Program-made: the position numbers and the translations under genes
The notes under the pieces: generated by a model
Database searches by the model: none
What the model was told of the DNA's origin: nothing
The model's input: only the letters and a program-made list of their open reading frames with translations
Source: a virus
DNA length: 27,613 nucleotides
Virus record (IMG/VR): IMGVR_UViG_3300046754_000339
Location: 1 to 27,613 of that record
Strand: one strand, 5' to 3'
In this document: positions 3,496-26,937 of the stretch, one piece after another
Layout of the letters: each line of letters starts with the position of its first letter
How positions within the stretch are numbered: position 1 is the first letter of the stretch

Positions 3496-4175
3496 TCCCC
3501 CGGTCAGGAAACATCAAGTTCAGAGAGTTGCTCACCGATTGCGGTGTCAGCACGATGTACGGCAACGGCTATCTCACACAAGCCTCGATCAGAGACAGAA
3601 CCGCCGCGACCACCAGTGGCAATGTCAGCATGTTGGCGTTGCGTGGCACTTGCGTCAGTTGTCACCGGAATTTGAATTCTTCGTGGAACGCGAAGAACTA
3701 CAACACCGGGGTCGCGAATTGCGCTTACTACATGAACCCCGGAAATCTCGAGTGCGATTGCGGTGTGAACTATCTTCGTCTCGGAGCGTCTCGACAGTCA
3801 GATCCTGATCAGTGGAGCGAGTGCCATTATCACGGATACTCAAGCGGCCACACTCGGTTCGCACTCGACGGAAAGATCAAGGGCTTCGGCAGTGCTAACG
3901 ACAAAGGCGCGCCCGGACAGATCAGTGTCATCGCGGCGAGTACCGGATTTCTCTCCGGTGCGCTCGATGTCCTTTGGAGCATTCAATATTACGGCACCTT
4001 TAGCGACAGGCCCGTCAGTGCGGCTCTGAACGTCCCGGTCGGGAAGCAGTACATCACGGTCGCTCACTACCAACTTCTTTATGGCCCCGACCATGTGCCT
4101 TCAAGTGATGGGCAGGCGACCTATGGGAAGAAGTATCTGACGCAGTTCGCAGAAGTCCGGATCAGGGGGGTTTGA
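3492..4175 (+). CDS. Cys-rich fibre-tip-like protein
   Basis: The 227-residue protein starts on an ATGA overlap with the S74 fibre. Residues 2-52 follow the pattern of a common phage structural N-terminus (xPxSGxIxFxxIxTxxG...IRxxT...SGxVSMxxLxG), also seen in the adhesin at 17546. The body contains seven cysteines, including CVSC and CDC groups, and several aromatic residues (NCAYYMNPGN, ECHYHGYSSGHTRF). The C-terminal half is predicted beta-rich. Placement right after a self-cleaving fibre suggests a tip, cap or receptor-binding subunit, by analogy with the second fibre-plus-adhesin pair. I cannot name a family, and the Cys groups could equally bind metal or form disulfides. Confidence 0.6.
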   Translation: MIPRSGNIKFRELLTDCGVSTMYGNGYLTQASIRDRTAATTSGNVSMLALRGTCVSCHRNLNSSWNAKNYNTGVANCAYYMNPGNLECDCGVNYLRLGASRQSDPDQWSECHYHGYSSGHTRFALDGKIKGFGSANDKGAPGQISVIAASTGFLSGALDVLWSIQYYGTFSDRPVSAALNVPVGKQYITVAHYQLLYGPDHVPSSDGQATYGKKYLTQFAEVRIRGV

Positions 4176-4519
4176 TGAGTTTCATTGTTATCGGAAGACG
4201 AATGATCTCTTTGCCGATCGCCACGCGGATCGATGCCAAGACGCTCGAGGACGCGTTGAGTGTTGTGAAGGGAATGCTGGTTACCGAGGAATGGAAGACC
4301 GTCACAGAGGAAGACGGCAGTGAGAGCGGTGAGCGGGTTGTCATGAACGACGGATATCAGGCGTGGTTCTTGATCGATGAGCAGACGTGCGACATCAAGC
4401 GGCTTTATCACAACGCAGACGAGCAACTATGCGTGACGGATTCTGAATCTGCGTTTGAGGTTCTGGGAACCGCGACTGATTACAAATATTACGAGGGCGA
4501 ACCCGATGGCACAGCTTAG
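4175..4519 (+). CDS. Hypothetical protein in the fibre/connector junction
   Basis: This is a 114-residue protein. I choose the ATG at 4175, which overlaps the upstream TGA and follows a GGGGGG stretch at 4165-4170. A TTG one codon earlier is possible. The sequence starts FIVIGRRMISLPIATRIDAK and later has an acidic, aromatic-rich half (DGYQAWFLIDEQTCDIKRLY). There is no recognisable domain, signal peptide or membrane segment. It overlaps the connector gene by 14 nt, so it is part of the structural operon. It could be a small fibre chaperone or neck accessory, but nothing in the sequence decides this. Confidence 0.55.
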   Translation: MSFIVIGRRMISLPIATRIDAKTLEDALSVVKGMLVTEEWKTVTEEDGSESGERVVMNDGYQAWFLIDEQTCDIKRLYHNADEQLCVTDSESAFEVLGTATDYKYYEGEPDGTA

Positions 4520-5231
4520 AGAGATTCACTGGCCGGAGGGTCCGGAGCAAGGCGACCTTCACAGTGAGGGCGGTCGGACGTGGGAATACGTCACGCTTCC
4601 TCCGGGTTCTAGTGTTCACGGCGTTTGGCGTGATGTCGGGTGCCAAGACATCTCGACGGGTCCGGGCTGGGATCTGGATTCAATCAAGGACTGGCTCGAG
4701 ATCAACGTCCCCGATTACGACGACCAGATCATTGCGGCGATGAAGGTGACGATGGCTTTCGTCGAGCGGTACTGCAACCGTCTCTTCGAGTGGCGTGACA
4801 ATCATCAAGAGCTGAAGTTGCCGCAGAAGGGTAACGGATGGCAGTTGCATCTCTGGCCGGTGAGCGGGTCGGTGTACATCGACAGCGTGAAGAACGAGTA
4901 CCTCGTCGACAACGAGCGCGGCGTGATCTGGTTCCCTAATTACCAGCACAAGAACTTCCATCAGCTCCAATACTCCGGCGGCTATAAGGCGGACGAGTGG
5001 CCTGCGGATCTCCTGCAAGTCCTGATGAACGCAATCAAGAACCAGTGGCAGATCAGCACCGGGGGCGAGACGGCGGACAAGGTATCGCGGATCACAATCC
5101 CCGACGTCGGAACCATTTCATACAACGCTGGCACGAGCTGGTCGACTGACATCGGACTCGGTACGAACTTCGGTCCGATCTCTCAGCAAGATCAAATCGT
5201 TCTCAATCTCTACAGGTTGTGGGAATGCTGA
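4506..5231 (+). CDS. Head-tail connector, gp6-like
   Basis: The protein has 241 residues. The ATG at 4506 is preceded by GAGGG with 8-nt spacing, so I prefer it to a longer in-frame start at 4455. After about 60 N-terminal residues comes DLDSIKDWLEINVPDYDDQI, then IAAMKVTMAFVERYCNRLF. This is the helical signature of the HK97 gp6 / SPP1 gp15 adaptor family (short helix with an L-x(2-4)-D motif, then VExYxxR/NR). The downstream beta strands (WPVSGSVYIDSV, YSGGYKADEWPADLLQVLMN) also match. The family forms a ring under the portal to which the stopper and tail dock. The roughly 60-residue N-terminal extension is longer than in minimal members. The following genes fit the canonical neck order. 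Confidence 0.7.
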   Translation: MAQLREIHWPEGPEQGDLHSEGGRTWEYVTLPPGSSVHGVWRDVGCQDISTGPGWDLDSIKDWLEINVPDYDDQIIAAMKVTMAFVERYCNRLFEWRDNHQELKLPQKGNGWQLHLWPVSGSVYIDSVKNEYLVDNERGVIWFPNYQHKNFHQLQYSGGYKADEWPADLLQVLMNAIKNQWQISTGGETADKVSRITIPDVGTISYNAGTSWSTDIGLGTNFGPISQQDQIVLNLYRLWEC

Positions 5232-5542
5232 ACAATCGATCTGACATCCGGGCGAAGTACGAGGCAACGATCGAGACGCTGGGTGTCCCGGCTGTTGTCG
5301 AGAGTATGTCCGGCGACTCGGTCAGTTGCATTGTCGGCTTCAAGACAAGCAACAGTGAAGAGCTGATCGCGGCGTATGGGGTCGGCGTGAAAGTCGTGAC
5401 CGTTCGTGAGCGTGATGTTCCGGTCGTGAAGAAAATGGATCGAGTTCTCGTTGCATCAGAGCGGTACACGATCAACGAAGTATTCCCGGTGTACCTCAAC
5501 GATCTGCTCGTTGGGTGGCGCTGTGTGATCAAAGGGAAGTGA
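5225..5542 (+). CDS. Putative head-tail joining (stopper-like) protein
   Basis: This is a 105-residue protein. I take the ATG at 5225, which overlaps the connector stop, over a GTG two codons upstream. Residues 20-100 are predicted mainly beta (VPAVVESMSGDSVSCIVGFK, VKVVTVRERDVPVV, DRVLVASERYTINEVFPVYL). That fits the small beta-barrel stoppers (HK97 gp7 / SPP1 gp16-like, phage head-tail adaptor) that seal the connector before the tail joins. The assignment rests mostly on size and on lying between the gp6-like connector and the terminator-like gene. Confidence 0.5.
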   Translation: MLNNRSDIRAKYEATIETLGVPAVVESMSGDSVSCIVGFKTSNSEELIAAYGVGVKVVTVRERDVPVVKKMDRVLVASERYTINEVFPVYLNDLLVGWRCVIKGK

Positions 5543-5543
5543 G

Positions 5544-5951
5544 ATGAGTTCGCAATATGTCAGAACTACATTTCGATCGTGGCTTCAGGACGCGCAGATT
5601 CAGACGCCGTACTACGACACGATCAATCTCGAGCAGAACCCATCCGAAGAGACATGGGTCACGGCTTCGTTCGATGTGACGCTTCGTGAGAAGAAAACCT
5701 TTTGCGAAGGGTCGTGGGAAGAAGAGGGGGAAGTGTCCCTCATATTCAACGGAATGGCGGGTGTGGGTGACGGCACACTTCTCGCGATTGTCGAGCTGGA
5801 TATCAAAACACTTCTGAGCTTTCGCGATGCGACTGGTCAGTTGACGATTACCGGAGCGAGTGGCGTCCAAGAGTTTTCAAGCGGCAACGTGAACTCCGGT
5901 TATCAAATCGAATACATCATTGAATACACCTTCTCGGAGAGACAATCATGA
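5544..5951 (+). CDS. Tail terminator-like protein
   Basis: This 135-residue protein begins VRTTFRSWLQDAQIQTPYYD followed by NLEQNPSEETWVTASF. This is the pattern of tail terminators (lambda gpU-type and DUF4128 relatives): a first helix ending in W, then a P, an N..P motif and a W-V-x-V strand. The remaining strands alternate (EGEVSLIFNGMAGVGDGTLL, YQIEYIIEYTFSERQ). Terminators form a ring that ends tail-tube polymerisation and docks on the head. The gene sits immediately before the major tail protein and overlaps it by 4 nt, the expected position. Confidence 0.6.
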   Translation: MSSQYVRTTFRSWLQDAQIQTPYYDTINLEQNPSEETWVTASFDVTLREKKTFCEGSWEEEGEVSLIFNGMAGVGDGTLLAIVELDIKTLLSFRDATGQLTITGASGVQEFSSGNVNSGYQIEYIIEYTFSERQS

Positions 5952-6601
5952 CAGCACATTCAACAGATACCGTCACCTTCTGGCTGACGACCGGGACACC
6001 AACGACCGGGACAATGGGGGCGGCACCAGCTCAAGGGAAGCCGACGTCGATCACGGCAACAACATCAGGCGGAGCCGACGGCGACATCGTTGTCTGCTCT
6101 AACACCAATTGGGGTTCGGTCGACAATGTTCAGATCGTGGACGACTGGTCGAACTCTGGCTTCAAGCTTCTCGGCTGTGACAGCACCAGAGAGACCGTAG
6201 CTTCCAAGGCAGGAAACTTCGCGCACTACAAAGCGGACGCAATGACCAAGCTCTGTCCGTCTGAGTTCACTGATAACTCGAACACACCGGGAACGACCGG
6301 GGTGCCGACGTTCTGTGATCCGACGGCCACGATTGCGAGTTCCGTGGTGGACAGCGGGACAGCAACACTCGTCGGTTATGTAGATACCTGTGACGAGGAT
6401 TACATCGCGCTGTACGAAGCATACCAATTCAAGGACCAGCGTTATCTCCGGATCGACCTTGGCGAAGCTGGCGGCTATCTCATCATGCCGGTCACTGCTC
6501 TTGGCATGAGCTGGGAACTTCCTATCGACGGCGCTGTGCAATATTCGATCGAGTTCGTGAAGGGCAGTGCAACACGCCACGCATTCGGACCTTGCGCCTA
6601 A
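5948..6601 (+). CDS. Major tail (tube) protein
   Basis: This is a 217-residue beta-rich protein whose ATG follows GGAGAG by 8 nt. It has the features of siphovirus tube subunits: an N-terminal strand (DTVTFWLTTGTPTTGTM), a Thr/Ser/Gly-rich surface loop, a central DNSNTPGTTGVPTFCDPTAT segment, and a helix plus strands near the end (EDYIALYEAYQFKDQRYLRI, AGGYLIMPVTALGMSWELPI). The position between the terminator and the tail assembly chaperone supports it. Four cysteines are present, more than usual for a tube protein. It is followed by a 33-nt gap containing a strong GGAGGG Shine-Dalgarno for the next gene. Confidence 0.7.
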   Translation: MTAHSTDTVTFWLTTGTPTTGTMGAAPAQGKPTSITATTSGGADGDIVVCSNTNWGSVDNVQIVDDWSNSGFKLLGCDSTRETVASKAGNFAHYKADAMTKLCPSEFTDNSNTPGTTGVPTFCDPTATIASSVVDSGTATLVGYVDTCDEDYIALYEAYQFKDQRYLRIDLGEAGGYLIMPVTALGMSWELPIDGAVQYSIEFVKGSATRHAFGPCA

Positions 6602-6634
6602 TCATCAACCACATACCCGAGACGGAGGGTACTC

Positions 6635-6892
6635 ATGTTAAAGACAAAGAAGGTAATCATCGAGGACACGGAGTACGAGTTCAGGGAGCCGACAGTTGAG
6701 TCGATGCTCCCTGTTCTCGGGAAGTTACAGGACGACGACAAACGCTTCGAAGCGCAAGTCGACATCCTGAAGCTGACAGTGTTCCTGAACGGGGAGCCGG
6801 TCGGTAATCAGATCGGCATCTCGAAGCTGAATGACTTTGCGCCACACGCGCTCGATGTCTGCGGTATGGGCAGTGATGATGACGCCAGTTGA
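6635..6892 (+). CDS. Tail assembly chaperone, first part (gpG-like)
   Basis: The 85-residue protein starts after GGAGGG. Its opening, KKVIIEDTEYEFREPTVES then MLPVLGKL, resembles the tail assembly chaperone family, whose members begin with a short beta hairpin (xxVxIxGxxYxFRxPT) followed by helices. These proteins coat the tape measure protein until the tail tube is built. The helical middle (RFEAQVDILKLTVFLNGEPV) fits. The C-terminus (GMGSDDDAS) is overlapped by the next gene in another frame, as in the lambda G-GT arrangement. Confidence 0.65.
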   Translation: MLKTKKVIIEDTEYEFREPTVESMLPVLGKLQDDDKRFEAQVDILKLTVFLNGEPVGNQIGISKLNDFAPHALDVCGMGSDDDAS

Positions 6893-7085
6893 AGAGAACC
6901 TCTTTCATCTGGCGGAGCGGTTGCACAAGTGCGTCTGGGAAATCAAACAGATGCCGGTCACCGAATACTTCGGCTGGATCACTCACCTCAACAAGCAAGC
7001 GGAAGCTCGCGACAAAGAGGAGAGGAAGAAGAAGGGTGACATGACTGCCATGTCGCCAGCGGAAATCGTGTCGAGGCTGACGTGA
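6876..7085 (+). CDS. Tail assembly chaperone, second part (gpT-like)
   Basis: From the ATG at 6876 the frame encodes 69 residues; the open frame itself extends upstream to 6831. The motif ERLHKCVWEIKQMPVTEYFG then WITHLNKQAEARD is the MxxxEFxxWxAxxxxxxE pattern of T-type tail chaperone domains. The tail is highly basic and charged (DKEERKKKGDM). In lambda and many siphoviruses this half is made only as a fusion to the first half by ribosomal slippage. Here it lies in the +1 (equivalently -2) frame relative to the first half and overlaps it by 17 nt. The in-frame ATGATG has only a weak ribosome site, so both independent initiation and frameshifting are possible. Confidence 0.55.
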   Translation: MMTPVEENLFHLAERLHKCVWEIKQMPVTEYFGWITHLNKQAEARDKEERKKKGDMTAMSPAEIVSRLT

Positions 7086-7561
7086 AGACAGGCTCATCAA
7101 TGAAGCTTGTCGGCGCTGACTTCCTTTCGAAGCAGATGAAGGCGTTCGGTCCTACCGTCTCGAAGGCGGCGGCGAAGACCGGACTCCGACAGGCTGGTCT
7201 TGAGTTGCGAAAGCAATTGTGGCGAGCGGCTCCGAAGAGAAGCAATCCCTCGAAACTGAAGAAGAGCATCGGGCTGAAGTCATACGGCAAGTGGAAGAAC
7301 CCGTCTGTCTTCGTCGGTCTCCGCAAAGCGAAGGGAGAGACGAGGGGTCTCTGGTATTACCGGACTCTGGAAGTCGATCACGCGAGAGGCAAGGCATATC
7401 ACCCGTTCTTCGAGAAGACATACAACCGGCACCGCAGACGGATCACGAAGTACATCGTGAAAGGAACAACGAAGGCGCTCTATACCGAGGCGACCAAGGT
7501 GTACGCGAAGAGCAAGTCAGATCAGTCGAAGTACGGGTTCCGGAGAGGGAGGGTCAAATAA
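7082..7561 (+). CDS. HK97 gp10-like tail/neck protein
   Basis: This basic protein has 159 residues. It starts on a GTGA overlap with GAGG 5 nt upstream; an ATG at 7100 is an alternative. It shows the pattern of the HK97 gp10-like family: an N-terminal helix pair (VSKAAAKTGLRQAGLELRKQ), a W-RAAPKRS...LKKSIG segment (equivalent to xxAPxRTGxLxxSI), a strand with VGLRK, then YYRTLEVDHARGKAYHPFFE (family: EFGT...PAxPFxRPAxE). It ends in a long basic helix. Family members act in tail completion or head-tail joining. They usually sit before the major tail gene, whereas here the gene lies between chaperone and tape measure. Confidence 0.65.
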   Translation: MKTGSSMKLVGADFLSKQMKAFGPTVSKAAAKTGLRQAGLELRKQLWRAAPKRSNPSKLKKSIGLKSYGKWKNPSVFVGLRKAKGETRGLWYYRTLEVDHARGKAYHPFFEKTYNRHRRRITKYIVKGTTKALYTEATKVYAKSKSDQSKYGFRRGRVK

Positions 7562-9487
7562 ATGGCGACAGCAGATAAGGATCTCGCGAAGTTATCGGTC
7601 CAGCTCGAGCTTCAGACTGCGGCGTTCGAGGCTGGCGTCAAGAGGATGGACGGCCAGCTCAAGCGGATGGACAAGAACACCAAACGCTCGAGCAAGGGGC
7701 TGGACAAGCTCAACGCGACGCTCGGGAAGTTGGGTATCAGTCTCGGCGCTCTGGCTGGCGCTTTCAGTATTCAGGCTGTCACCAACCTCACCAAAGAGGC
7801 GATCGCATTTGGTGACTCAATCGATAAGGTCTCGCAAAAAGTCGGGGTCAGTGCTGAAGAGCTTCAGGAGTTGCGATTCGCGGCTTCACAAAGCGGCGTC
7901 GATGTTCGTCAGCTCGACATGGGTATTCAGCGTTTCGCTCGGAGAATGGGCGAAGCGGCGAAGGGTACCGGCGAACTTTTAAAGACGACTCAAGAGCTTG
8001 GCATCGTTTTCAAGAATGCTGACGGCACGAACAAGTCAACGGTCGAACTCCTCGAGCAATACGCCGAAGCGGTTGGCAGGGCAACAACCCAACAAGAGAA
8101 ACTGCGGCTGGCGTTTAAAGCGTTCGACTCAGAGGGTGCCGCGCTCGTCAACCTGATCGGCAACGGTTCGGCGGCGATGAAAGAGTTCGCGGCAGAAGCA
8201 AGACGCGCCGGAATCATCATGGGAGAAGGCACCGTCAAAGCGGCGGCGAATCTCACTGATGAGATGGACAGGCTAGAAAAGATTGTCAGCACAAAGGTGA
8301 ACACGGCAGTCATCAGATTCACGGCGTCTGTATTGGACCTGTTTGGTGCGCTTGATGGTGAAGGTCAGATGGCTTTGGCTCTGTCGCGTATTGAGCAATT
8401 CGAAGACAAGCTCCGCGCCGCTCAAGAAGCTGGCGATGAAGATGGAATTGCTAATGCGATAGAGCTGATCACGAAGTGGTCGCAAACTTACTATGACTTG
8501 CGGATGGAATACGGTGACTTCGCCGATACGGTGAACAACACAGTCATCACGCCGAAGATCGATCAAGACGCTAGTCTGAAAAAGTTCGCCGATGTCGTCA
8601 AAGAAATCGAGATGGCGAAAGATCCGTTTTATGAATACGAACAGAGAATTCTACGGATTCAAGAGGCGACGCTTGCAGGCGCTATCGGGCCGACTGAGAT
8701 GGCGGCGGCGATTGCGAGAGTAACTGAGGAGGCGTACTACGCGCTCGACCCTGTCGGTCAGTTCGAAGCGAAAGTGAACAAGTTCGTTGAAGGCTTGAAC
8801 GCTGAAGCCAATGACACGGCTGAACAGCTCGGCATTATGTATGCCGCGCTCAAGCTGGTCACCGACCCGGCGTTGATAGCACAGATTGAAAAGCAGATTG
8901 CGGCGCTCGAGGGATTCACCCCAGATCCCGAGCCGATCGAGAACTATGCCGGGGTCGCGCAAGAGGCGCTTGAAAAGATTCAGGACGCGGCGGATGGTTT
9001 CATCAGTGACTTCACAACCGAACTCGTTGACGGTCTAGCCGAGGGCGAGCTTGCGTTCGATGACTTTGCGAAGTCGGTACTCAAGACAATCGCGAAGATC
9101 GTACTCAACGAAATCTTCACGCAGTTCTTCACCGCTGTATCCGGGAACCTGTTCCCGAAAGCGGCGGGGGTTGAACTTCCAGAGACTGTGACCGCATCGA
9201 TCGCGCAGGGTCAGGGCGGGATGACGAGAGCAGGAGAGCAGGCGACTGCGATGACTGTTGGTCGTCTCGTTTCAAACCAGTCAGCGAGCAGTGGCAACAC
9301 ATCACCCGTCACGGTGAACGTGAACAACTACGGCAACGACGACGTCTCGGTCACCGAGCGACAAGACTCGAACGGCGGCATCGAGATCGATGTCCTCATC
9401 AAGAACACTGTGAGAAACGGATTCGCTGGGGGTGACTTCGACAAAGTGATGTCGTCCACATTCGGCGCGAGGAGGCTCGGGTACTGA
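7562..9487 (+). CDS. Tail tape measure protein
   Basis: This 641-residue, mostly helical protein has an N-terminus (LAKLSVQLELQTAAFEAGVK then RMDGQLKRMDKNTKRSSKGL) typical of tape measure proteins. A hydrophobic stretch follows at residues 59-80 (GISLGALAGAFSIQAVTNLT), then a phage TMP core (FGDSIDKVSQKVGVSAEELQ, LRFAASQSGVD). The C-terminal part (about 475-545) resembles the lambda gpH-type end: FISDFTTELVDGLAEGELAF, DDFAKSVLKTIAKIVLNEIF. Tape measure length sets tail length at roughly 0.15 nm per residue, which would give a tail of about 95 nm, a short siphovirus tail. Three gaps in the helical pattern (near 265, 350 and 450) hint at domain joints. Confidence 0.9.
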   Translation: MATADKDLAKLSVQLELQTAAFEAGVKRMDGQLKRMDKNTKRSSKGLDKLNATLGKLGISLGALAGAFSIQAVTNLTKEAIAFGDSIDKVSQKVGVSAEELQELRFAASQSGVDVRQLDMGIQRFARRMGEAAKGTGELLKTTQELGIVFKNADGTNKSTVELLEQYAEAVGRATTQQEKLRLAFKAFDSEGAALVNLIGNGSAAMKEFAAEARRAGIIMGEGTVKAAANLTDEMDRLEKIVSTKVNTAVIRFTASVLDLFGALDGEGQMALALSRIEQFEDKLRAAQEAGDEDGIANAIELITKWSQTYYDLRMEYGDFADTVNNTVITPKIDQDASLKKFADVVKEIEMAKDPFYEYEQRILRIQEATLAGAIGPTEMAAAIARVTEEAYYALDPVGQFEAKVNKFVEGLNAEANDTAEQLGIMYAALKLVTDPALIAQIEKQIAALEGFTPDPEPIENYAGVAQEALEKIQDAADGFISDFTTELVDGLAEGELAFDDFAKSVLKTIAKIVLNEIFTQFFTAVSGNLFPKAAGVELPETVTASIAQGQGGMTRAGEQATAMTVGRLVSNQSASSGNTSPVTVNVNNYGNDDVSVTERQDSNGGIEIDVLIKNTVRNGFAGGDFDKVMSSTFGARRLGY

Positions 9488-9852
9488 TGGCATACGACGG
9501 AACAACAACACTCCCCCCGGAGGGTCTCGACGGTTGCTGGTCGACGTGGAATGAAACGCAATCGGACAACGTGGTTCGCAACACAATGGACAAGGGCAAC
9601 GTGCGGACCCGGCGTCGGTTCACCGGAATCAATCGAACGGTGCAAGTCACCGTCAAGCTCACGGCTGACAAGTACCAGCTCTTCATGTTCTGGTTCAACA
9701 GGGATCAGGCGCAGGGGACGATCCCGACATTCTGTCAGACGCCATACGGCTCGACAGAGCTGTTCCTCTGGACGACTCCGCCGACTATCACTTGGCCCGA
9801 CGCCAATCATTTCGAAGCGTCAGTTCAGATGTTTCAAGGCTCAAACTGGTGA
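9487..9852 (+). CDS. Minor tail protein, gpM-like position
   Basis: The 121-residue protein starts on an overlap with the tape measure stop. It has a pattern I associate with small phage tail proteins found after tape measures: DNVVRNTMDKGNVRTRRRFT, then alternating strands around VQVTVKLTADKYQLFMFWF, GTIPTFCQTPYGSTELFLW, and an ending FEASVQMFQGSNW. It probably corresponds to the small tail-tip adaptor (lambda gpM or distal-tail-like) that links tube to tip. There is no catalytic motif. It is translationally coupled to the DUF1833 gene through GTGA. Confidence 0.6.
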   Translation: MAYDGTTTLPPEGLDGCWSTWNETQSDNVVRNTMDKGNVRTRRRFTGINRTVQVTVKLTADKYQLFMFWFNRDQAQGTIPTFCQTPYGSTELFLWTTPPTITWPDANHFEASVQMFQGSNW

Positions 9853-10325
9853 CGACTGTCGAGTTCGAGAACACGCTTCACTCGGATCACTCCGAAGAGG
9901 CTATCTTCTTTCTGCTGACGATTACTTCTCCGCAGTTGTCGGAGACGCTGTATCTGGTGAACAACAACGAGGCAGTCATATCTCGGGGGCGCGTGTATGA
10001 GCCGTTTCCGTTTGATGTTGTTCTCCCCCCGGAGGATGGCGGCAAGCCAAAGGCTCTCAAGCTGAACACATACAACCTGTCGCCGGAGTTCATGGACTTG
10101 GTGCGGCAGACTCAAGAGCCGCCGCTTGTGAAGTTCGAGATCGTGTCGACTCGTGACATGGATCAGGTCGAGAAGGTGATCGACTTCATGCAAGTTGGCG
10201 CGGCTGACTATGACGCAGTCACGGTCAGCTTCACATTGGTCAGCTCCCAATTCGGAGCGCGGAAGACTCTTCAGGCGATGTACTCGCAGAATGAGTTTCC
10301 CGGTCTGTTCTTCGCGCTTCAATGA
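9849..10325 (+). CDS. DUF1833 family tail protein
   Basis: I choose the GTG at 9849 that overlaps the previous stop (GTGA), giving 158 residues. The longer open frame starting at 9792 would overlap the previous gene by 60 nt. The protein begins TTVEFENTLHSDHSEEAIFF, followed by strands such as LLTITSPQLSETLYLVNN, YEPFPFDVVLPPEDGGKPK and VKFEIVSTRDMDQVEKVIDF. This matches what I know of DUF1833 proteins, whose genes usually stand between the small minor tail gene and an NlpC/P60 gene upstream of a TipJ gene. It is taken to be a tail-tip (gpL-like) component; the biochemical role is not known. Confidence 0.75.
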   Translation: MTTVEFENTLHSDHSEEAIFFLLTITSPQLSETLYLVNNNEAVISRGRVYEPFPFDVVLPPEDGGKPKALKLNTYNLSPEFMDLVRQTQEPPLVKFEIVSTRDMDQVEKVIDFMQVGAADYDAVTVSFTLVSSQFGARKTLQAMYSQNEFPGLFFALQ

Positions 10326-10705
10326 GTTACGTCGGCATCCCATATCTCAACCGAGGTCGCGACCGTGATGGCTGTGACTGTTGGGGATTGGTACAGCTCT
10401 GGCACAAAGAGCAACTCGACGTCGAGGTTCCGGACTATCTCTGGGCGTACACGAGCGCCGAGGATCATGGATCGGTTGCCGATGCCATAAACGAAAACAA
10501 GGTCCAGTGGTTGAAGGTAGAGGACGAGCCGAAGTACGGCGACGTCTTGGTCTTCAATATTCTGGGTCAACCAATTCACGTCGGGATCATGCTCGAGGGC
10601 GATGACTTCCTTCACGCATTCCAGAACACCGAGAGCTGTCTCGAGAGATTGAGTTCCGTGTCATGGGCGCGACGACTTCGAGAGGTTTACCGATGGGTGC
10701 AGTGA
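10322..10705 (+). CDS. NlpC/P60 tail-tip peptidase (gpK-like)
   Basis: This 127-residue cysteine peptidase has the catalytic motif in GCDCWGLVQLW, where Cys20 is the likely nucleophile (family pattern D-C-x-G-L). The expected second-half motif is GDVLVFNILGQPIHVGIML with His86, and a following FLHAF adds another His. Such tail-tip domains (lambda gpK C-terminus) are thought to cut peptidoglycan cross-links during DNA entry. The gene starts on ATGA with the DUF1833 gene and overlaps the TipJ gene by 13 nt, the usual K-I-J order without a separate I gene. The N-terminal JAB/MPN domain of lambda gpK is absent, so only the NlpC half is present. Confidence 0.85.
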   Translation: MSYVGIPYLNRGRDRDGCDCWGLVQLWHKEQLDVEVPDYLWAYTSAEDHGSVADAINENKVQWLKVEDEPKYGDVLVFNILGQPIHVGIMLEGDDFLHAFQNTESCLERLSSVSWARRLREVYRWVQ

Positions 10706-13700
10706 TTCCAACTCCGGCAGTACCGGAGCCGATGCACTTCGAGATCGGTCACGGTCTGACCATTGCCGAGATATTGGGTCACGCAAATTGTGCGCCAACG
10801 ATGTGGCAGTACATGCAGATCAAGGTCAACGGCACGATGCTCGAGCGGGATCAGTGGGAGAACTTCATCCCCCGTTCGAATGATGTGGTCTCGATCTTGG
10901 TTCGACCGGCAGGCGGTGATGGCGGCAAGGAGATATTCAGACTCATCGCGACGATTGCGATTGCGGTTGCGGCTGTCGTCTTTGCTCCTCAACTTGTTGG
11001 CTTCATCAACACCACGTTCGGCACTACGCTATCGACTGCGGCCACGAGTGCGGCGGTACTCACAACGACGGCGGTACTGACGACGGTCGGCACGTTGATT
11101 CTGAATGCTGTCGTGCCACCTCCCTCGATCAACCTTCCGAACTCTGGATTCGATTCCGGTGAGTCGTACTTCATAACGGGTCAGTCGAATCAGGCGAGAC
11201 CGTATCAGGTGGTCCCCGTCGTGTATGGCCGAATGAAGATGGTCGGCAACCTCGCGAGTCAACCAGAGGTATTTTCAGCCGGTGACTCAACCGTGTTCAC
11301 GACGCTTGTCGATTGGGGTCTCGGTGCGAACCGCGTCTCGGATATACGAGCGGGTGATACGCAGATCGCATACTTCAACGGCACCATCATCTCTCACGAG
11401 AACACGCCAGCCTATGCGGACGAGAACAACCCGGCGGCGGGTCTCGCTCCGGTGCCGCTTCAGTTGCTTCAGTACCCGCTCAACTCTCAGGAGCTGAGCG
11501 TCGGTCTCAGCTCTGACGGTGATGTCGGTGTTGCGACGACAGTGCCGACAGCGTACTCGGCAGTCGTTGAGCTGAGCTTCCCGCAGGGGATCGCGTACTA
11601 CGACAAGAACGGTGACCTCCAGCGTCTCGGCGTTACCTTCGAGGGTACCTATCGGAAGCGCGGTGATAGTGAGTGGCTCAACTGGCCGACCGGGACTGAG
11701 GGGTACGCAGGCGACGCACACATCTGGTTCGGTCAGGGATCGGTCGACCCCAACAATCCGAACCCGGAGGGCAACCCGTCGATCACGATCAACGTACCGT
11801 CGACGGTGCAGTCCGGTGAGACGTTCACGTTCTCCCTTGCGTTCGACAAGGAGGTGTATCAGGTAAGCCGCACCGACTTGAGTTTCATTCGAGCGTCGAA
11901 CTCTACTGATGCGACCGACCAGTTCGAACTCATCAGCGAAAACGAGATCACCGCGAATCGTCTCTGGCAGTTCACCTATCGAGCGCCAGTGGTAGCGGAC
12001 AACGAGAGTCTTCAGTTCCTGATCGCGACCAATCTTCAGAACTTCGTCGACGCACCGCCGCCGAACGGAGTTCAGTTTCCGGACACCGCTTATGTGTCAC
12101 CGAACTTCGTTGTCGCGGGTGAGAGCGTTGACACTGGCGACGGCGGTCCGGGGGAGGACGACACAAACCTTTACGACCAGACGTCGGGGAACGAGACGTA
12201 TGTCATGGTCACCGGCTTTTCTTCGTTCGGGTATATACCGGGCGACTCCTCGACTTGGAATGTCTTGGGGTTCTCGGTTTGGGTCCGGGGATCGACAGTA
12301 CCCAGCGACACCGCAAACTTCAGGAACTACGCAGGCACATTCCAAACAAGTAGCAGAACGCCCGGTTTCTCAGGCGAGATCATTACCGAATACTGGACGC
12401 TGAAGAATTCGACCGGAGCGCCGGGTCGCGCTACTGGCTCGAGGTTCATGCCTCGATATGCTGGCTTCCCGAACATCAACTATCCCGGCATCAATCCCGA
12501 ATACTTCGGGGCGCGGTTCAGCCTGTACGGTGACGAGACCAAGCCAGCCAAAGCGTCGATCGTCATTCAGTTTCCGGAACAGGGCGAGTATGAAATCAAG
12601 GTCGAGAGAATAGGCGACACTGAAAACAGCGACGACAAAAACCAATACTTCAATTCGGCGTACTGGACGCGCATTGCTTCACGAGGTTACCCGTTCACAG
12701 ACATCGAGGACGGTCGCCGGTCGGTATTGAATCTGAAGCGCAAGCACACGATGAGCGAGATCCGTCTCGAGGCTTCGGAGAATGTACAAGGCAACCTGAA
12801 TCAGATCACCGGGGTCGTGACGTCAAAGCTCCGGGGACACAACGGCAACCAGTGGACCGAGCCGACAGACAGTCGCAATCCCGCGTGGGTTGTTGCTGAC
12901 ATCCTGACCGGCCATCGAGCGCAACAGATCCGATACCCGCTGAACTCTCAAGACTGTCCCGGCTATGTGACAGAAGACCAGCTCGACCTCGCGTCGTTCC
13001 GCCAGTTCGCGCAAGTGTGTCGAGAGAAGGTTGAGTACGAGTACAAGGGCGAGACGGTAGAGCGGTTCCGGTACACGACGGACATCGTACTCGCCGCACA
13101 AGCTCCGGTGATTGAGACAGTTCAGAACATCCTCGCCATGTGTCGCGCACAGTTGATCATGGGACAGAACGGATTGATCCAGATCATGCAGGACGTTGAT
13201 CGAGGCGAACAGGTTCGTCAGGTCTTCACTCCTGCGAACTCGTGGAACTTCAAGGGTGAAAGGATCTTCCCGAAGATACCTCACGGACTGAATGTTGAAT
13301 TCGTTTCCCCCGATCTCGGTTACCAGAAGGGCGAGGTCACGATATACCGTCCGGGCTACGACATCACGAACGCCACAGACTTCGAAGACCTGAAGACATT
13401 CGGTTGCACCAACTGGCACTTCGCCGCGCAGTACGGAATGTACAACCTTGGTCAGATGGTCTTGCGTCAGGAAACATTCACTCTCAGCGTGGCGGCTGAG
13501 TCGCTCGTTGTACAGCGTGGCGATGTGGTGGAAGTGGCGACCGATGTTGCGGCGCTCGGAGGCGGCTCGCATCTTATCGTTGACCAAGTATCGGCGGACA
13601 CGATCGTCATCAGTGAGGAGCCAAACGCTTACAACGATCCGCATTACACGATCAAAAGCGACGACGGTGTAAAGCAGGGCCGAGTCGTATCGATCATCGG

Positions 13701-21971: not shown

Positions 21972-23036
21972 TTAAAGTTCGAACAACGCTTTCAAGTCGT
22001 CCCTGTTCTTGTTGACGTAGACGTCGAGCATCGCTGTCGTCTTGTGACCGCTGAACATCTTGAGCTTGTAGATGTCCTGAGTCTTGCGCGACATGTCTGT
22101 GATCGCCGTGTGACGGATGCAGTGAAACCCGCGCTGGGGTCCGCCGAGTCCGTGTCGCTTCCTAATCTCAGCGAAGTGATTGTCGAAGCTGGTGCATTTG
22201 CCGAGCTTGCCTTTGAACAGGGGATCGTCAGGCGAGAGGTTCTCGTCTGCCACCATCTTCGCGAGGTCATCTCTCAGCTCCTCGCTGATGATGGTCAGGC
22301 GCTCGAGGTGCTTGCCGGTTTCCTTCACGATGTCCTTGCCTTTGATGGTCAGGTACACGTCGTCCCATTCCATGTCCCGAACGAGGATGCGACGAGACTC
22401 TGCTCTGCGGATGCCAGTCTCCCTGATGAGTCGGAGGTACAGCGGGAGCTGTCGTCGCGGCTTCATCCACCACGCCGCAGTCAGAGAGCATTCGAGAGCG
22501 TCCTGATACAGCGTGTCAAACTGCTCATCGGTGAACGTGTTCGTCCGGTTGTCGTTCTCCGGCCATCTCAGCACTTTGTGACAGGGGTTCTCGCTGAGCC
22601 ATTGGTTCGGCGCTTTGGTGAAGTACGTCATGACAGAGGACAGGGTGCCGAGCTTGCGGTTCTTGGTCGGACCTTGGTTCTTCTGTTTGTCGAGGAGGTG
22701 ATGAATCTTGGTGCCGGTGATCTCGATCATGCGAGTCGAACCGAGCAGACGCTTCCACTCGTTGAGACGATTCATCGTTTGCTGACGAGAGTTCTCCGAC
22801 TTGGTTGGCACCACGTCCTTGATGTAGATGTCGATCGCTTGAACGAGAAGTCGATCCTTCGAATTCAAGGAGGGAGTGAACTTGGAATTTTTGAGCAGGC
22901 GTTCCATCTCCTGTCCCCATTCCTTCGCGGCGGACTTGGTCTCGAACGACTTCGAAATCTTCTTCATGCCGCCGACTTGTACCTCTGCGCGGTATGCCAG
23001 ATTCCGGTCATTCCGCTTGTTGATGTAAACACTCAT
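21972..23036 (-). CDS. int: Tyrosine integrase
   Basis: This is a site-specific recombinase of 354 residues. The start is the ATG at 23036, which overlaps the upstream gene stop; longer in-frame starts would run deep into that gene. The N-terminal region (about 1-55) is an arm-binding-like three-strand domain (VYINKRNDRNLAYRAEVQ). A core-binding helical domain spans about 62-145. The catalytic domain has Arg210 in RETGIRRAES, Lys in LTIKGKDIVKET (232-238), His305 and Arg308 in FHCIRHTAI, His331 in MFSGHKTTA and Tyr340 in LDVYVNKN, so the full R-K-H-R-H-Y set is intact. The attachment region lies about 0.7 kb upstream, beyond two small co-transcribed genes. It should catalyse integration at a tRNA-Ser gene. 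Confidence 0.95.
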   Translation of the reverse strand: MSVYINKRNDRNLAYRAEVQVGGMKKISKSFETKSAAKEWGQEMERLLKNSKFTPSLNSKDRLLVQAIDIYIKDVVPTKSENSRQQTMNRLNEWKRLLGSTRMIEITGTKIHHLLDKQKNQGPTKNRKLGTLSSVMTYFTKAPNQWLSENPCHKVLRWPENDNRTNTFTDEQFDTLYQDALECSLTAAWWMKPRRQLPLYLRLIRETGIRRAESRRILVRDMEWDDVYLTIKGKDIVKETGKHLERLTIISEELRDDLAKMVADENLSPDDPLFKGKLGKCTSFDNHFAEIRKRHGLGGPQRGFHCIRHTAITDMSRKTQDIYKLKMFSGHKTTAMLDVYVNKNRDDLKALFEL

Positions 23037-23359
23037 GCCGCTTCTCCTGTGAACTCGACGACAACACCGTGACGGAAGTCGCGCTCGATCTGTTGCATGA
23101 CGTCTCGCTCGTATGCTCGATTGAATTGTTGAGGTGAGACGGAGTAGGCACGATCGCCGTCGCGACGGAACACGGTCAAGGCGATGTCGTTGCCGAGGTC
23201 CATGATCTTGTAGCACTGCTGGTGGGCGAAGCTGACTGCCGGGTCCATCGTGGGGTAGTAACGAACACCGACAAAGTTGTCAGCGTCGTCGTGGCAGATG
23301 ACAGTCCAGCCGCACTTGGCGGCGTTGAACTGAACGGTGATGGTGTAGGGGAGGCTCAT
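23033..23359 (-). CDS. Hypothetical protein upstream of integrase
   Basis: This 108-residue protein is coupled to both neighbours by ATGA overlaps. The N-terminal half is beta-like (LPYTITVQFNAAKCGWTVIC), resembling small RNase/HicB-type strands (xYxVxxxxxxxGWxVxCPD), and the second half is helical (QFNRAYERDVMQQIERDFRH). Because it lies directly before int and after attP it is a candidate for a recombination directionality factor, but no MerR/Xis-type helix-turn-helix is visible. It is best left unassigned. Confidence 0.55.
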   Translation of the reverse strand: MSLPYTITVQFNAAKCGWTVICHDDADNFVGVRYYPTMDPAVSFAHQQCYKIMDLGNDIALTVFRRDGDRAYSVSPQQFNRAYERDVMQQIERDFRHGVVVEFTGEAA

Positions 23360-23619
23360 GCTGACACCTCGCAGATGTGGTCGTCGATGACGCGCCCGGT
23401 CCGGACGTCGATCAGACGGAAGTCACGAAGATGGGCGGCACCGAAATGTTGCAGGCAGTATTCAAACTCTTTGCTCGCTGACTTCATGGGGTACGACTTC
23501 TTCAGTCGGTTAGTCCATTCGGTGTCAGCCATGTGACCCATACCATCAGCTTCGTATTCAGCAACGAGCTTCGCGCTGTCGCGCTGTTGTACTTGGAATC
23601 GATATTGTCGGTAGTTCAT
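23356..23619 (-). CDS. Hypothetical protein, first gene of the integrase operon
   Basis: This basic and aromatic 87-residue protein (NYRQYRFQVQQRDSAKLVAE, KKSYPMKSASKEFEYCLQHF) has a good GGAGA ribosome site upstream of the ATG at 23619. The mixture of a short strand, a helix and a final beta segment (RDFRLIDVRTGRVIDDHICE) suggests a small folded protein. As the first gene after attP, 45 nt from the nearest arm repeat, it could be a small DNA-binding accessory factor, but no motif shows this. Confidence 0.55.
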   Translation of the reverse strand: MNYRQYRFQVQQRDSAKLVAEYEADGMGHMADTEWTNRLKKSYPMKSASKEFEYCLQHFGAAHLRDFRLIDVRTGRVIDDHICEVSA

Positions 23620-23663: not shown

Positions 23664-23684
23664 GTTGCGCCCAAGTTGCGCCCA
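23664..23684 (+). repeat. Left pair of integrase arm-type repeats
   Basis: GTTGCGCCCA occurs twice in direct orientation, at 23664-23673 and 23675-23684, with an 11-nt period (one helical turn). A second pair with the same spacing lies on the other side of the tRNA fragment. Paired, helically phased direct repeats flanking a core are the usual layout of arm sites bound by the N-terminal domain of a tyrosine integrase. Confidence 0.75.
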
Positions 23685-23689
23685 GACCC

Positions 23690-23718
23690 AGTATGGGACC
23701 ATGTGGCACCATTTACAA
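23690..23718 (-). promoter_or_regulatory. Candidate promoter for the integrase operon
   Basis: Read leftward, TTGTAA (23713-23718) and CATACT (23690-23695) are separated by exactly 17 nt, each matching sigma-70 hexamers at four of six positions. It lies between the tRNA-type terminator and the first gene at 23619, where a start is needed because two terminators block transcription from the right. Its overlap with the arm-site region would let integrase or an excision factor repress its own operon. Confidence 0.35.
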
Positions 23719-23723
23719 CAGGC

Positions 23724-23750
23724 AAAAAAAACCCCCAAAAACAGGGGGTT
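23724..23750 (-). terminator. Intrinsic terminator directly after the tRNA-Ser fragment
   Basis: Read leftward: CCCCC, a seven-base loop, GGGGG, then eight T residues (the A-run at 23724-23731). It begins 3 nt after the CCA end of the tRNA-like block, as terminators of real tRNA genes do. It may have been acquired with the tRNA segment, or it may insulate the integrase operon. Confidence 0.85.
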
Positions 23751-23752
23751 AG

Positions 23753-23817
23753 TGGCGGTGGGCGTAGGATTCGAACCTACGGAGGGTCACCCCTCAACGG
23801 TTTTCAAGACGGTGCCA
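23753..23817 (-). other. attP: attP core: 3' half of tRNA-Ser(TGA)
   Basis: Read leftward, the block carries the 3' side of a class II tRNA: an anticodon loop CTTGAAA with TGA at 23804-23806, a long variable arm (GAGGG/CCCTC stem, GTGA loop), a T arm (GTAGG, loop TTCGAAT, CCTAC), the acceptor 3' strand GCCCACC, discriminator G and CCA at 23753-23755. The matching 5' acceptor (GGTGGGC) and a normal D arm are missing: upstream sequence instead has GTGCC and GGCAC around a 20-nt loop. One anticodon-stem pair is C-C. It is therefore not a complete tRNA gene but the tRNA-identical part of a phage attachment site, which restores the host tRNA-Ser gene on integration. It lies between repressor and int, as attP should. 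Confidence 0.8.
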
Positions 23818-23870
23818 TATAGTATTACTACTCTGCGGCACTCGTCTCAGCACCAGTGTTTAAGCCATTT

Positions 23871-23926
23871 CACTCGGTGCCACTCGGTAGCACTACCCCC
23901 CGAAAAGAGTGCGAATGAGTGTGAAG
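23871..23926 (+). repeat. Two sets of tandem 10-bp repeats on the right arm of attP
   Basis: CACTCGGTGC and CACTCGGTAG are adjacent at 23871-23890, with a further CACTCGT at 23839. GAGTGCGAAT and GAGTGTGAAG are adjacent at 23907-23926. The 10-bp phasing and position between core and right arm pair make them candidate excisionase or accessory-factor sites. This is inference from layout only. Confidence 0.5.
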
Positions 23927-23946
23927 TTGCGCCCAGATTGCGCCCA
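23926..23946 (+). repeat. Right pair of integrase arm-type repeats
   Basis: GTTGCGCCCA (23926-23935) and ATTGCGCCCA (23937-23946) repeat the left pair in the same orientation and with the same 11-nt period. The second copy abuts the A-run of the repressor terminator. Confidence 0.75.
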
Positions 23947-23968
23947 AAAAAGGGAGCCGAAGCTCCCC
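23946..23968 (-). terminator. Intrinsic terminator of the repressor-like gene
   Basis: Read leftward, GGGAGC, a TTCG tetraloop, GCTCCC and six T residues form a textbook Rho-independent terminator 28 nt after the stop of the gene at 23996. It separates the regulator transcript from attP. Confidence 0.9.
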
Positions 23969-25341: not shown

Positions 25342-25679
25342 CAATACTTCTCGCTGATGACCGAGAGGACCGCGTTTAGCCGAGCCTCGAGTGCGCTGAG
25401 TCGTTCGTTCGTGGCGACCATCTGCTCGAGCATCAAGTCACCGGTCGGTCGGACTGCTCGCTTCCCGGTCAGCCTCTGGCCCATCAGGGCGGGGACAATG
25501 CGGCACCGGGTACGAGTCCCGACCTTCGTCTCGACGATCGATCCCTCCTCGAGCATTCCGTTCACCCGACGTTGCCTGATCGACCAGTCGAGATTGACCA
25601 GACTGTCGAACTGCGGGTACTTGGCGGAGAACTCAGCCGGTGTCAGTGGATCAAAGTCATGTTCAATTGAGTCGCTCAT
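25341..25679 (-). CDS. Putative DNA-binding protein (winged-HTH-like)
   Basis: This is a 112-residue protein. Residues 12-70 (LTPAEFSAKYPQFDSLVNLD, WSIRQRRVNGMLEEGSIVET, KVGTRTRCRIVPALMGQRLT) resemble a small helix-turn-helix/winged domain frequent in phage and prophage proteins (xxFxxxxPxxxxxxxLRxxxxxRxxNGLxxxGxxVxxGRRxLI). The C-terminus is a predicted coiled coil (MLEQMVATNERLSALEARLN). It overlaps both neighbours by 1-3 nt in the recombination operon, so it could be a regulator or a replication accessory. Confidence 0.5.
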   Translation of the reverse strand: MSDSIEHDFDPLTPAEFSAKYPQFDSLVNLDWSIRQRRVNGMLEEGSIVETKVGTRTRCRIVPALMGQRLTGKRAVRPTGDLMLEQMVATNERLSALEARLNAVLSVISEKY

Positions 25680-26074
25680 CAGAAGGGAATGTCCTCCTCG
25701 TCAGCGAAGCCGGGGAGGTCGTCTGACTCTTTGGGCTGGGTGGGCTTGTCGTCTGACTTGGTGGGCTGGTCGCCGCCGTCCTGCCATGCCTTCACCTTCT
25801 CGAGCAGTGCGCCGTCCTTCGACCAGTCGTCGCGCTCGAAGCTGAACTCGGTCTTCGCGTCCTTCTCTTGGTTGCGAGCGATCTTGACCTTCAGGTACTT
25901 CTGATCGATCTCGCGGTACATCTTCGCCATCGCCTTGAGGTTGTCGCAGAACTTGTCGATCGACTCCTCTTCGGTGATGAACGAGAGAGTGCCTGCGAAG
26001 TATTTCTTCTGCGCGTCTGACGTTGTCTCGTTGAAGAACAGGCCATTCAACCAGCGCGGTGCTTGCTTACTCAT
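25679..26074 (-). CDS. Single-stranded DNA-binding-like protein with DIPF tail
   Basis: This 131-residue acidic protein begins QAPRWLNGLFFNETTSDAQK with a strand-rich N-terminal part, then a helix (FCDNLKAMAKMYREIDQKYL), a strand (KVKIARNQEKDAKTEFSFE), a Gly/Pro/Asp/Lys-rich linker (about 95-120), and the end DEEDIPF. The acidic tip ending in DIPF is the signature of bacterial SSB proteins, used to recruit repair and replication partners. The core does not obviously match the standard SSB OB fold, so this is an SSB-like or phage-specific ssDNA protein. It overlaps the recombination gene by 8 nt and thus probably works with it on DNA ends. Confidence 0.55.
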   Translation of the reverse strand: MSKQAPRWLNGLFFNETTSDAQKKYFAGTLSFITEEESIDKFCDNLKAMAKMYREIDQKYLKVKIARNQEKDAKTEFSFERDDWSKDGALLEKVKAWQDGGDQPTKSDDKPTQPKESDDLPGFADEEDIPF

Positions 26075-26720
26075 CGTCGTCTTCCTCTTCGGTTTCGTAA
26101 TATGCGCGGCGAGCGGCTCTGACTCCTTCGCCTTCCTTCATCATTTGTCTTTCCGCTGTCGACCAGATGCCGCCGTCGCGTGTGCTGATGGCGAACAGGC
26201 TGATCTTCTGGTCGTCGGTGAGTTCTTCGTATGACTCGACCACGACGTCCCACTTCTCCCGCTTCATTCCCCAGCGGATGCGAGCGGCAGACTCGAGGCA
26301 ATCTCTCAGGCAGAGCGTGTGCCGCAGGAGCTTCTCATTCTGTTTCCGCAGATCGGTCAGCTCCTCGAGCATCGAGTCCCCGACCTCCTCGTATGATGCG
26401 ATCCCGGCGTCAGCCAGAAGCCCCAGAGAGGCGAGGGCGCGTCCGACAGCGGCGGTCTCAGTCCGCTCGACGCCTTCGGATCGGCTCGCCTTACCGTCGC
26501 GCCAAGGCTTCTCACTGTGACCAGTCGAGCGCAGGCGACCGTCAGGGTCGAGGATCTCGCAACGCACGAGGATCGATTGCTTCCCATGCGTGACCTTGGT
26601 GTCGATCGTCCAGCCTGCGTATTCCTCGCTCGAGCGGAACTCGTGAATCCGTGTGGCGACGAGCGCGTACCACTTGTCGCCGAGCTTGATGTGTCCGGGT
26701 TTCTTCTCTTCTTCAGTCAT
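26067..26720 (-). CDS. Phage recombination-associated protein
   Basis: The protein has 217 residues from the ATG at 26720. The N-terminal region (KLGDKWYALVATRIHEFRSS, WTIDTKVTHGKQSILVRCEI, LDPDGRLRSTGHSEKPWRDG) followed by SEGVERTETAAVGRALASLG matches a phage family: VxxRVxxFRxxxPxWxIxTxxxxxxxxxVxVxAxIxDxxGRxxATGxAxE...xxxxENxETSAVGRALAxLG. It is found beside ssDNA annealing and SSB genes. The second half contains helices (SMLEELTDLRKQNEKLLRHT) and a domain (WDVVVESYEELTDDQKISLF) with an acidic end. It is likely a DNA-binding or annealing accessory in homologous recombination; the exact activity is not known. Confidence 0.6.
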   Translation of the reverse strand: MTEEEKKPGHIKLGDKWYALVATRIHEFRSSEEYAGWTIDTKVTHGKQSILVRCEILDPDGRLRSTGHSEKPWRDGKASRSEGVERTETAAVGRALASLGLLADAGIASYEEVGDSMLEELTDLRKQNEKLLRHTLCLRDCLESAARIRWGMKREKWDVVVESYEELTDDQKISLFAISTRDGGIWSTAERQMMKEGEGVRAARRAYYETEEEDDDE

Positions 26721-26937
26721 CTGCGATGGTCCTCTCGAAATGCTCATACAGCGCGTCGTGGTCGTACTCGAGAACCTCGCACCCGTCGAAGGTGTGACAC
26801 TGAACGTCGATGTCGTACAGCCACGCCAGCTCAGTGCGGTCGTTGCCGATGTCGATGGGTTCTTGATGGCGCTTGGCGTAAGAGCCGGAGGTGTCAAGGC
26901 GAGGGTCGGAGGGATCGACCTCTATCGTCAGCCACAT
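26713..26937 (-). CDS. Small acidic hypothetical protein
   Basis: This 74-residue protein starts at the ATG at 26937 with GGAG about 9 nt upstream; a GTG two codons earlier is possible. It is acidic, with beta-like stretches (WLTIEVDPSDPRLDTSGSYA, DIDVQCHTFDGCEVLEYDHD) and a helical end (ALYEHFERTIAD). It is coupled to the recombination gene (8-nt overlap) and to the short gene upstream (TGATG). No family is recognised. Confidence 0.5.
   Translation of the reverse strand: MWLTIEVDPSDPRLDTSGSYAKRHQEPIDIGNDRTELAWLYDIDVQCHTFDGCEVLEYDHDALYEHFERTIADD

Follow-up and report, generated by a model that had tools for sequence, protein, structure and literature searches.

A probable phage attachment site with a tRNA-Ser(UGA) core and paired arm repeats points to a host in the marine genus Luminiphilus

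Organization of the locus

The window, by which we mean the whole stretch of DNA that was analysed, spans an entire virus record, which is 27,613 bases long and is classed as linear. No terminal repeats of 15–199 bp were found in this 27.6-kb contig, and the record is probably a genome fragment. A block of tRNA sequence on the minus strand is bordered on the left by tail genes and the integrase gene (int) and on the right by a minus-strand gene set, one member of which (26067–26897) matches PHROG 11717, a phage-protein family whose function is undescribed; an earlier note on this DNA had likewise placed phage genes on both sides. The features around the block are as follows.

21972–23036, minus strand: tyrosine integrase, 354 aa, ATG at 23036 (PF00589, E = 1.5e-12; PHROG 1, E = 2e-36)
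23033–23359, minus strand: 108-aa open reading frame (ORF call) just upstream of int, with a 4-bp overlap with int
23356–23619, minus strand: 87-aa open reading frame (ORF call), the first gene past the int-side arm
23664–23684, no strand assigned: int-side arm, direct-repeat pair GTTGCGCCCA A GTTGCGCCCA with an 11-nt period
23722–23750, minus strand: intrinsic terminator directly 3′ of the tRNA half (stem 23750–23730, then a U tract; fold −12.4 kcal/mol)
23753–23810, minus strand: attP common core, tRNA-Ser(UGA) 3′ half
23839–23921, no strand assigned: five CACTC/GAGTG words clustered between the core and the distal arm, including two pairs at a distance of 10 bp
23926–23946, no strand assigned: distal arm, direct-repeat pair GTTGCGCCCA G ATTGCGCCCA, in the orientation and with the period of the int-side arm
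23946–23968, minus strand: intrinsic terminator closing the right-hand minus-strand gene set (stem 23968–23951; fold −12.1 kcal/mol)

The 414-aa open reading frame called for int takes in an upstream extension, and a start at the ATG at 23036 gives the 354-aa protein. Residues R210, H305, R308, H331 and Y340 are invariant across five integrases, and the site therefore has as its neighbour a tyrosine recombinase with catalytic residues, as a heterobivalent attP does. In a weak predicted model of the protein (pLDDT 60, pTM 0.30), the N terminus contains three strands (residues 2–7, 13–19 and 27–31) and a helix (residues 34–49), with a local pLDDT of about 70–80. The earlier note had put int next to the site: the gene is indeed nearby, but it lies 628 bp from the nearer arm, with the two small open reading frames intervening. 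These gave no match in family searches and are possible accessory or excision genes; the int gene set that they form with the integrase gene reads away from the attachment site. One terminator follows the CCA and the other precedes the distal arm, which its U tract abuts, and the attachment site thus lies between two terminators.

The phage DNA gave a single match among 50,697 phage records, to the tRNA itself, and the phage is without a close sequenced relative. Single-protein searches of viral contigs with the phage integrase, and with the integrase of the genomic element described below, returned no relatives, and a search of solved structures by sequence gave no match. Elsewhere in the window, a predicted tail-fibre gene contains repeats of 66–84 nt (2650–3149). 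By eye, one protein encoded within 25679–26897 has an acidic DDLPGFADEEDIPF tail resembling that of single-strand-binding proteins, and the next resembles an annealing protein; Pfam lends neither reading support.

A tRNA-Ser(UGA) 3′ half forms the core

Read on the minus strand from 23810 to 23753, the core is GTCTTGAAAACCGTTGAGGGGTGACCCTCCGTAGGTTCGAATCCTACGCCCACCGCCA, 58 nt running from the anticodon loop to CCA, with the anticodon TGA at 23804–23806. Its fold has just the variable and T arms, and both the 5′ acceptor and the D arm are missing. ARAGORN detected no full tRNA on either strand of the window, Rfam gave no match in the window and the exact core was not found in viral contigs. The fold, together with the genomic identity described below, agrees with the earlier description of a tRNA-Ser 3′ half that keeps its variable and T arms and lacks the 5′ acceptor and D arm, and the complete tRNA with a paired acceptor that the same note had regarded as incompatible with its reading is absent. 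The limits it had given for the block (23753–23817) are right on the left and 7 nt too far on the right, where the shared block ends at 23810 and 23811–23817 is phage-specific sequence.

Joined in silico to the 5′ half of a host gene (locus L009), the phage 3′ half yields an attL with a complete tRNA-Ser(TGA). The in-silico attB likewise gives tRNA-Ser(TGA), and neither the attP nor the joined attR gives a tRNA. The attP carries, in other words, the exact, gene-restoring tRNA fragment that characterizes tRNA-targeting elements.

Paired repeats flank the core

Because one of the four repeat copies is ATTGCGCCCA, the 9-mer common to all of them is TTGCGCCCA. It occurs exactly four times in the 27.6 kb, against 0.21 expected, and none of 100 shuffles reached four. 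All four copies belong to the two pairs with an 11-nt period, one on each side of the core, and the doubled motif itself occurs twice against 0.01 expected. These coordinates and counts bear out the earlier observation of two same-orientation pairs around the block, and they give the site the repeated arm-type sequences on both sides of the core that are typical of a heterobivalent attP.

The spacer between the core and the distal arm holds the densest 100 bp of CACTC/GAGTG words in the window. The five words compare with 0.31 expected and were matched in none of 2,000 shuffles of the 116-nt spacer, statistics that are only suggestive because the motif was picked after inspection. A recombination directionality factor or another accessory protein might bind these words. 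IHF-like sites in the attP appear only as matches with two mismatches. A search of viral contigs for the arm-pair pattern returned one unrelated contig, in which many TGGGCGC/GCGCCCA repeats, some of them 11 nt apart, lie (3113–3360) near terminase-like genes; no integrase was seen in its 7.7 kb.

The core matches tRNA-Ser(TGA) genes of Luminiphilus

We scanned 84,980 species genomes for an exact 50-nt piece of the core. Ten contigs matched, all of them titled Luminiphilus or Halieaceae, and ARAGORN found a full tRNA-Ser(TGA) at eight of the ten loci; of the two without a complete 5′ half, one (L006) starts inside the gene and the other (L008) has other sequence there. The core is identical over 58 of 58 nt to tRNA-Ser(TGA) in nine genomes, all within a set of 57 returned as one genus, Luminiphilus, in which 36 of the 57 have a match of some quality. 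In every matched locus the identity between phage and host ends at the same edge, GTCT just before the anticodon TGA. A G+C content of 56% is compatible with that of the host loci (55–59%), which is weak evidence.

The earlier prediction that the target is the tRNA-Ser reading UCA is supported by these exact matches, by the complete tRNA in the in-silico attL and by the element of a related integrase described below. Its proposed search for tRNA-Ser(TGA) genes identical to the block succeeded in Luminiphilus, over 58 nt; its companion search, for prophages sharing the block at attL and attR, did not, and no prophage or lysogen of the phage was present in the genomes searched. The phage integrase found only weak matches in Luminiphilus genomes, and the central tail protein was not found in the 57 genomes of the genus by a search run without a positive control. 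Because of the attB match, the host is likely to be the marine genus Luminiphilus (Halieaceae, OM60/NOR5), which the phage would lysogenise. No described Luminiphilus phage was found in the literature searched, the coverage of which was partial. For a phage that lacks close sequenced relatives, the attP thus yields a host prediction that can be checked.

A related integrase at the same tRNA gene

The best relative of the phage integrase in Halieaceae, in a genome that we call G135 (27% identity, E = 2e-31), lies directly behind a full tRNA-Ser(TGA), with roughly 360 bp between the tRNA and the start of the integrase gene. The tRNA 3′ half recurs on the same contig 17.8 kb further on, and the element is bounded by a 59-bp repeat, TCTTGAAAACC...CCATA, that starts one base from the start of the phage core. 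This is the integrated form, bounded by the tRNA and the displaced fragment (L053/L064), that was not found for the phage. The relationship is distant, at 27% identity, yet the element shows directly, in nature, which target and break region a related integrase uses. It resembles the phage in its integrase, its tRNA-Ser(UGA) target and the position of its duplicated 3′ half; unlike the phage as we see it, the element is integrated, no phage genes were identified among the proteins scanned, and its arms have diverged, with no clear TTGCGCCCA. Positions 2519–11064 of locus L064 carry a type I restriction-modification set and an HTH plus IrrE-like gene. Three further integrase matches from an order-wide search (G206, G304 and G367) were set aside, as none stood beside tRNA-Ser in the loci scanned; one of these loci also has a tRNA-Phe.

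Interpretation as an attachment site

The identity of the core, the paired arms, the integrase and the G135 relative together lead us to conclude, with high confidence, that the region 23664–23946 holds an intact attP, belonging to a temperate tailed phage and of the kind used by heterobivalent tyrosine integrases, with a tRNA-Ser(UGA) core and two pairs of arm-type sites. The earlier note had proposed an attP here, and the exact tRNA matches, the full tRNA of the reconstructed attL and the presence of that tRNA half at the ends of the related integrase's element all favour that proposal. Its further statement that the genome is not integrated is the simplest reading, under which the DNA comes from a free, circular or packaged genome, but a junction between tandem identical prophages would look alike.

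The design itself is already known: paired arms round a tRNA-derived core, and crossovers centred on the anticodon, have been described before. Cluster J mycobacteriophages have attachment sites in which pairs of 10-bp direct arm repeats surround a tRNA-derived core (PMC3706429). Those of Omega and BAKA share with the phage the tRNA-derived core, the two pairs of roughly 10-bp direct repeats and the nearby tyrosine integrase; in contrast to the phage, however, their core is 44 bp long and lies in tRNA-Leu (58 bp in tRNA-Ser(UGA) here), their attP is 3′ of int (here it lies 5′ of the int gene set), their host is actinobacterial (here a marine gammaproteobacterium is predicted) and their arm motifs are unrelated (PMC3706429). 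Tyrosine-integrase attPs that carry a tRNA fragment and have anticodon-centred crossovers are common (PMC4383910). As in the Islander class of tRNA-targeting integrative elements with an anticodon-loop sub-site (PMC4383910), the 3′ tRNA fragment in the attP restores the gene and the break is near the anticodon loop; the phage differs in being seen unintegrated, its integrated form not having been found in the genomes searched.

If it acts like other heterobivalent tyrosine integrases, the phage integrase would bind the GTTGCGCCCA repeats, holding the arms with its N-terminal domain, and would cut attP and attB in or near the anticodon loop, the exact crossover being placed by inference. Integration would then create a complete tRNA whose 5′ half is the host's and whose 3′ half, with the terminator that follows it (23722–23750), is the phage's; the host 3′ half would be displaced to the opposite end of the prophage. 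After integration this terminator would end transcription of the tRNA and keep it out of the int operon. Excision would be expected to need an excision factor, as with other integrases of this type; the CACTC/GAGTG cluster and the two small open reading frames are candidate parts of such a system. The recombination parts are mapped well enough for a direct integration test.

Three other readings of the region have to be weighed. The block could be the junction of two tandemly integrated elements, or the displaced attR fragment of an old insertion, in which case the sequence would be chromosomal. Where elements are stacked in tandem at a single tRNA gene, a 3′ half comes before the int of the next element, which looks identical to what we see, and several Luminiphilus genomes have other insertions or remnants at the tRNA-Ser gene. 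Against this, a shared arm motif stands on either flank of the core and is absent from the rest of the window, which fits the P and P′ pair of a single integrase; the contig is viral, lacks a full tRNA and has phage genes to the left and right of the site; and tandem copies of the same phage would carry the same attP in any case. We therefore consider a chromosomal junction very improbable. Phages often carry tRNA genes, and the piece might instead be a decayed phage-borne gene, now or once used in translation, with the repeats as unrelated regulatory sites. One phage record does contain an annotated tRNA-Ser related to the block (88% over 60 nt), but identity to the bacterial gene is total over the 58 nt and has a sharp edge near the anticodon, as in the core of the G135 element, and decay would produce neither such an edge nor flanking repeats of the integrase type, making this origin scarcely credible.

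It is also conceivable, although unlikely, that the attP stands as described and the GTTGCGCCCA pairs are bound by a different protein, for instance an excision factor or a repressor, with the integrase arms lying elsewhere, for example in the CACTC/GAGTG cluster. Arm binding by the integrase is a prediction, and the cluster, with its 10-bp period, is also conspicuous; it is confined, however, to one side of the core, whereas the TTGCGCCCA pairs are on both sides, as in published arm sites.

Allelic 3′ halves and other insertions at tRNA-Ser in Luminiphilus

We compared alleles at the Luminiphilus tRNA-Ser loci L012–L050 and L068–L073. The 5′ half and anticodon arm of tRNA-Ser(UGA) are constant in nearly all copies read, and the variable and T arms fall into two main allele types. 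On a tree of the upstream flanks, the allele type changes six times, with at least four of the changes forced by well-supported branches. Two sister genomes illustrate such a switch: G002, which has the phage-type half, and G031, which has the other type, are 96% identical in their upstream and 94% in their downstream flanks, and only 68% identical in the segment comprising the variable arm, T arm and acceptor. The G002 3′ half is exactly the allele of the phage attP core. We found no donor for it within the genome: the one copy of its T-arm sequence in G002 is that of the tRNA. The title of the G002 contig gives a coverage of about 2; even so, no more than about 12 bp are shared at the right-hand end of the swapped block, which makes a simple assembly switch unlikely.

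Elements whose attP includes a 3′ half are natural donors, and a swap mediated by them is a candidate explanation for these switches. We tentatively suggest, with somewhat less than even confidence, that integrative elements with attP sites like that of the phage repeatedly replace the 3′ half of Luminiphilus tRNA-Ser(UGA) while leaving the flanks untouched, in at least four to six switches, the half in G002 being that of the phage core. Since the original half would return on ordinary excision, the swap would need an extra recombination step; exchange between strains is an alternative source of the switches. With its allele pattern, the gene is a natural setting in which to ask if mobile elements rewrite halves of tRNAs.

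Several of these genomes show further structure at the gene. Three (L012, L013 and L014) have other repeat pairs with an 11-nt period, of the GTCGGGAC or GTCGGCA type, past the tRNA terminator; these may be arm sites, or remnants, of other elements at this gene. In genome G006, a full tRNA-Ser is followed by non-host sequence on one contig (L007/L020) and a truncated tRNA by host sequence on another (L008/L022), which are likely to be the attL and attR of a different element. The metagenome-assembled genome G003 contains two tRNA-Ser loci (L014 and L021) with near-identical upstream flanks and extra sequence behind the tRNA in one only, which suggests the occupied and empty forms of the site in a mixed population.
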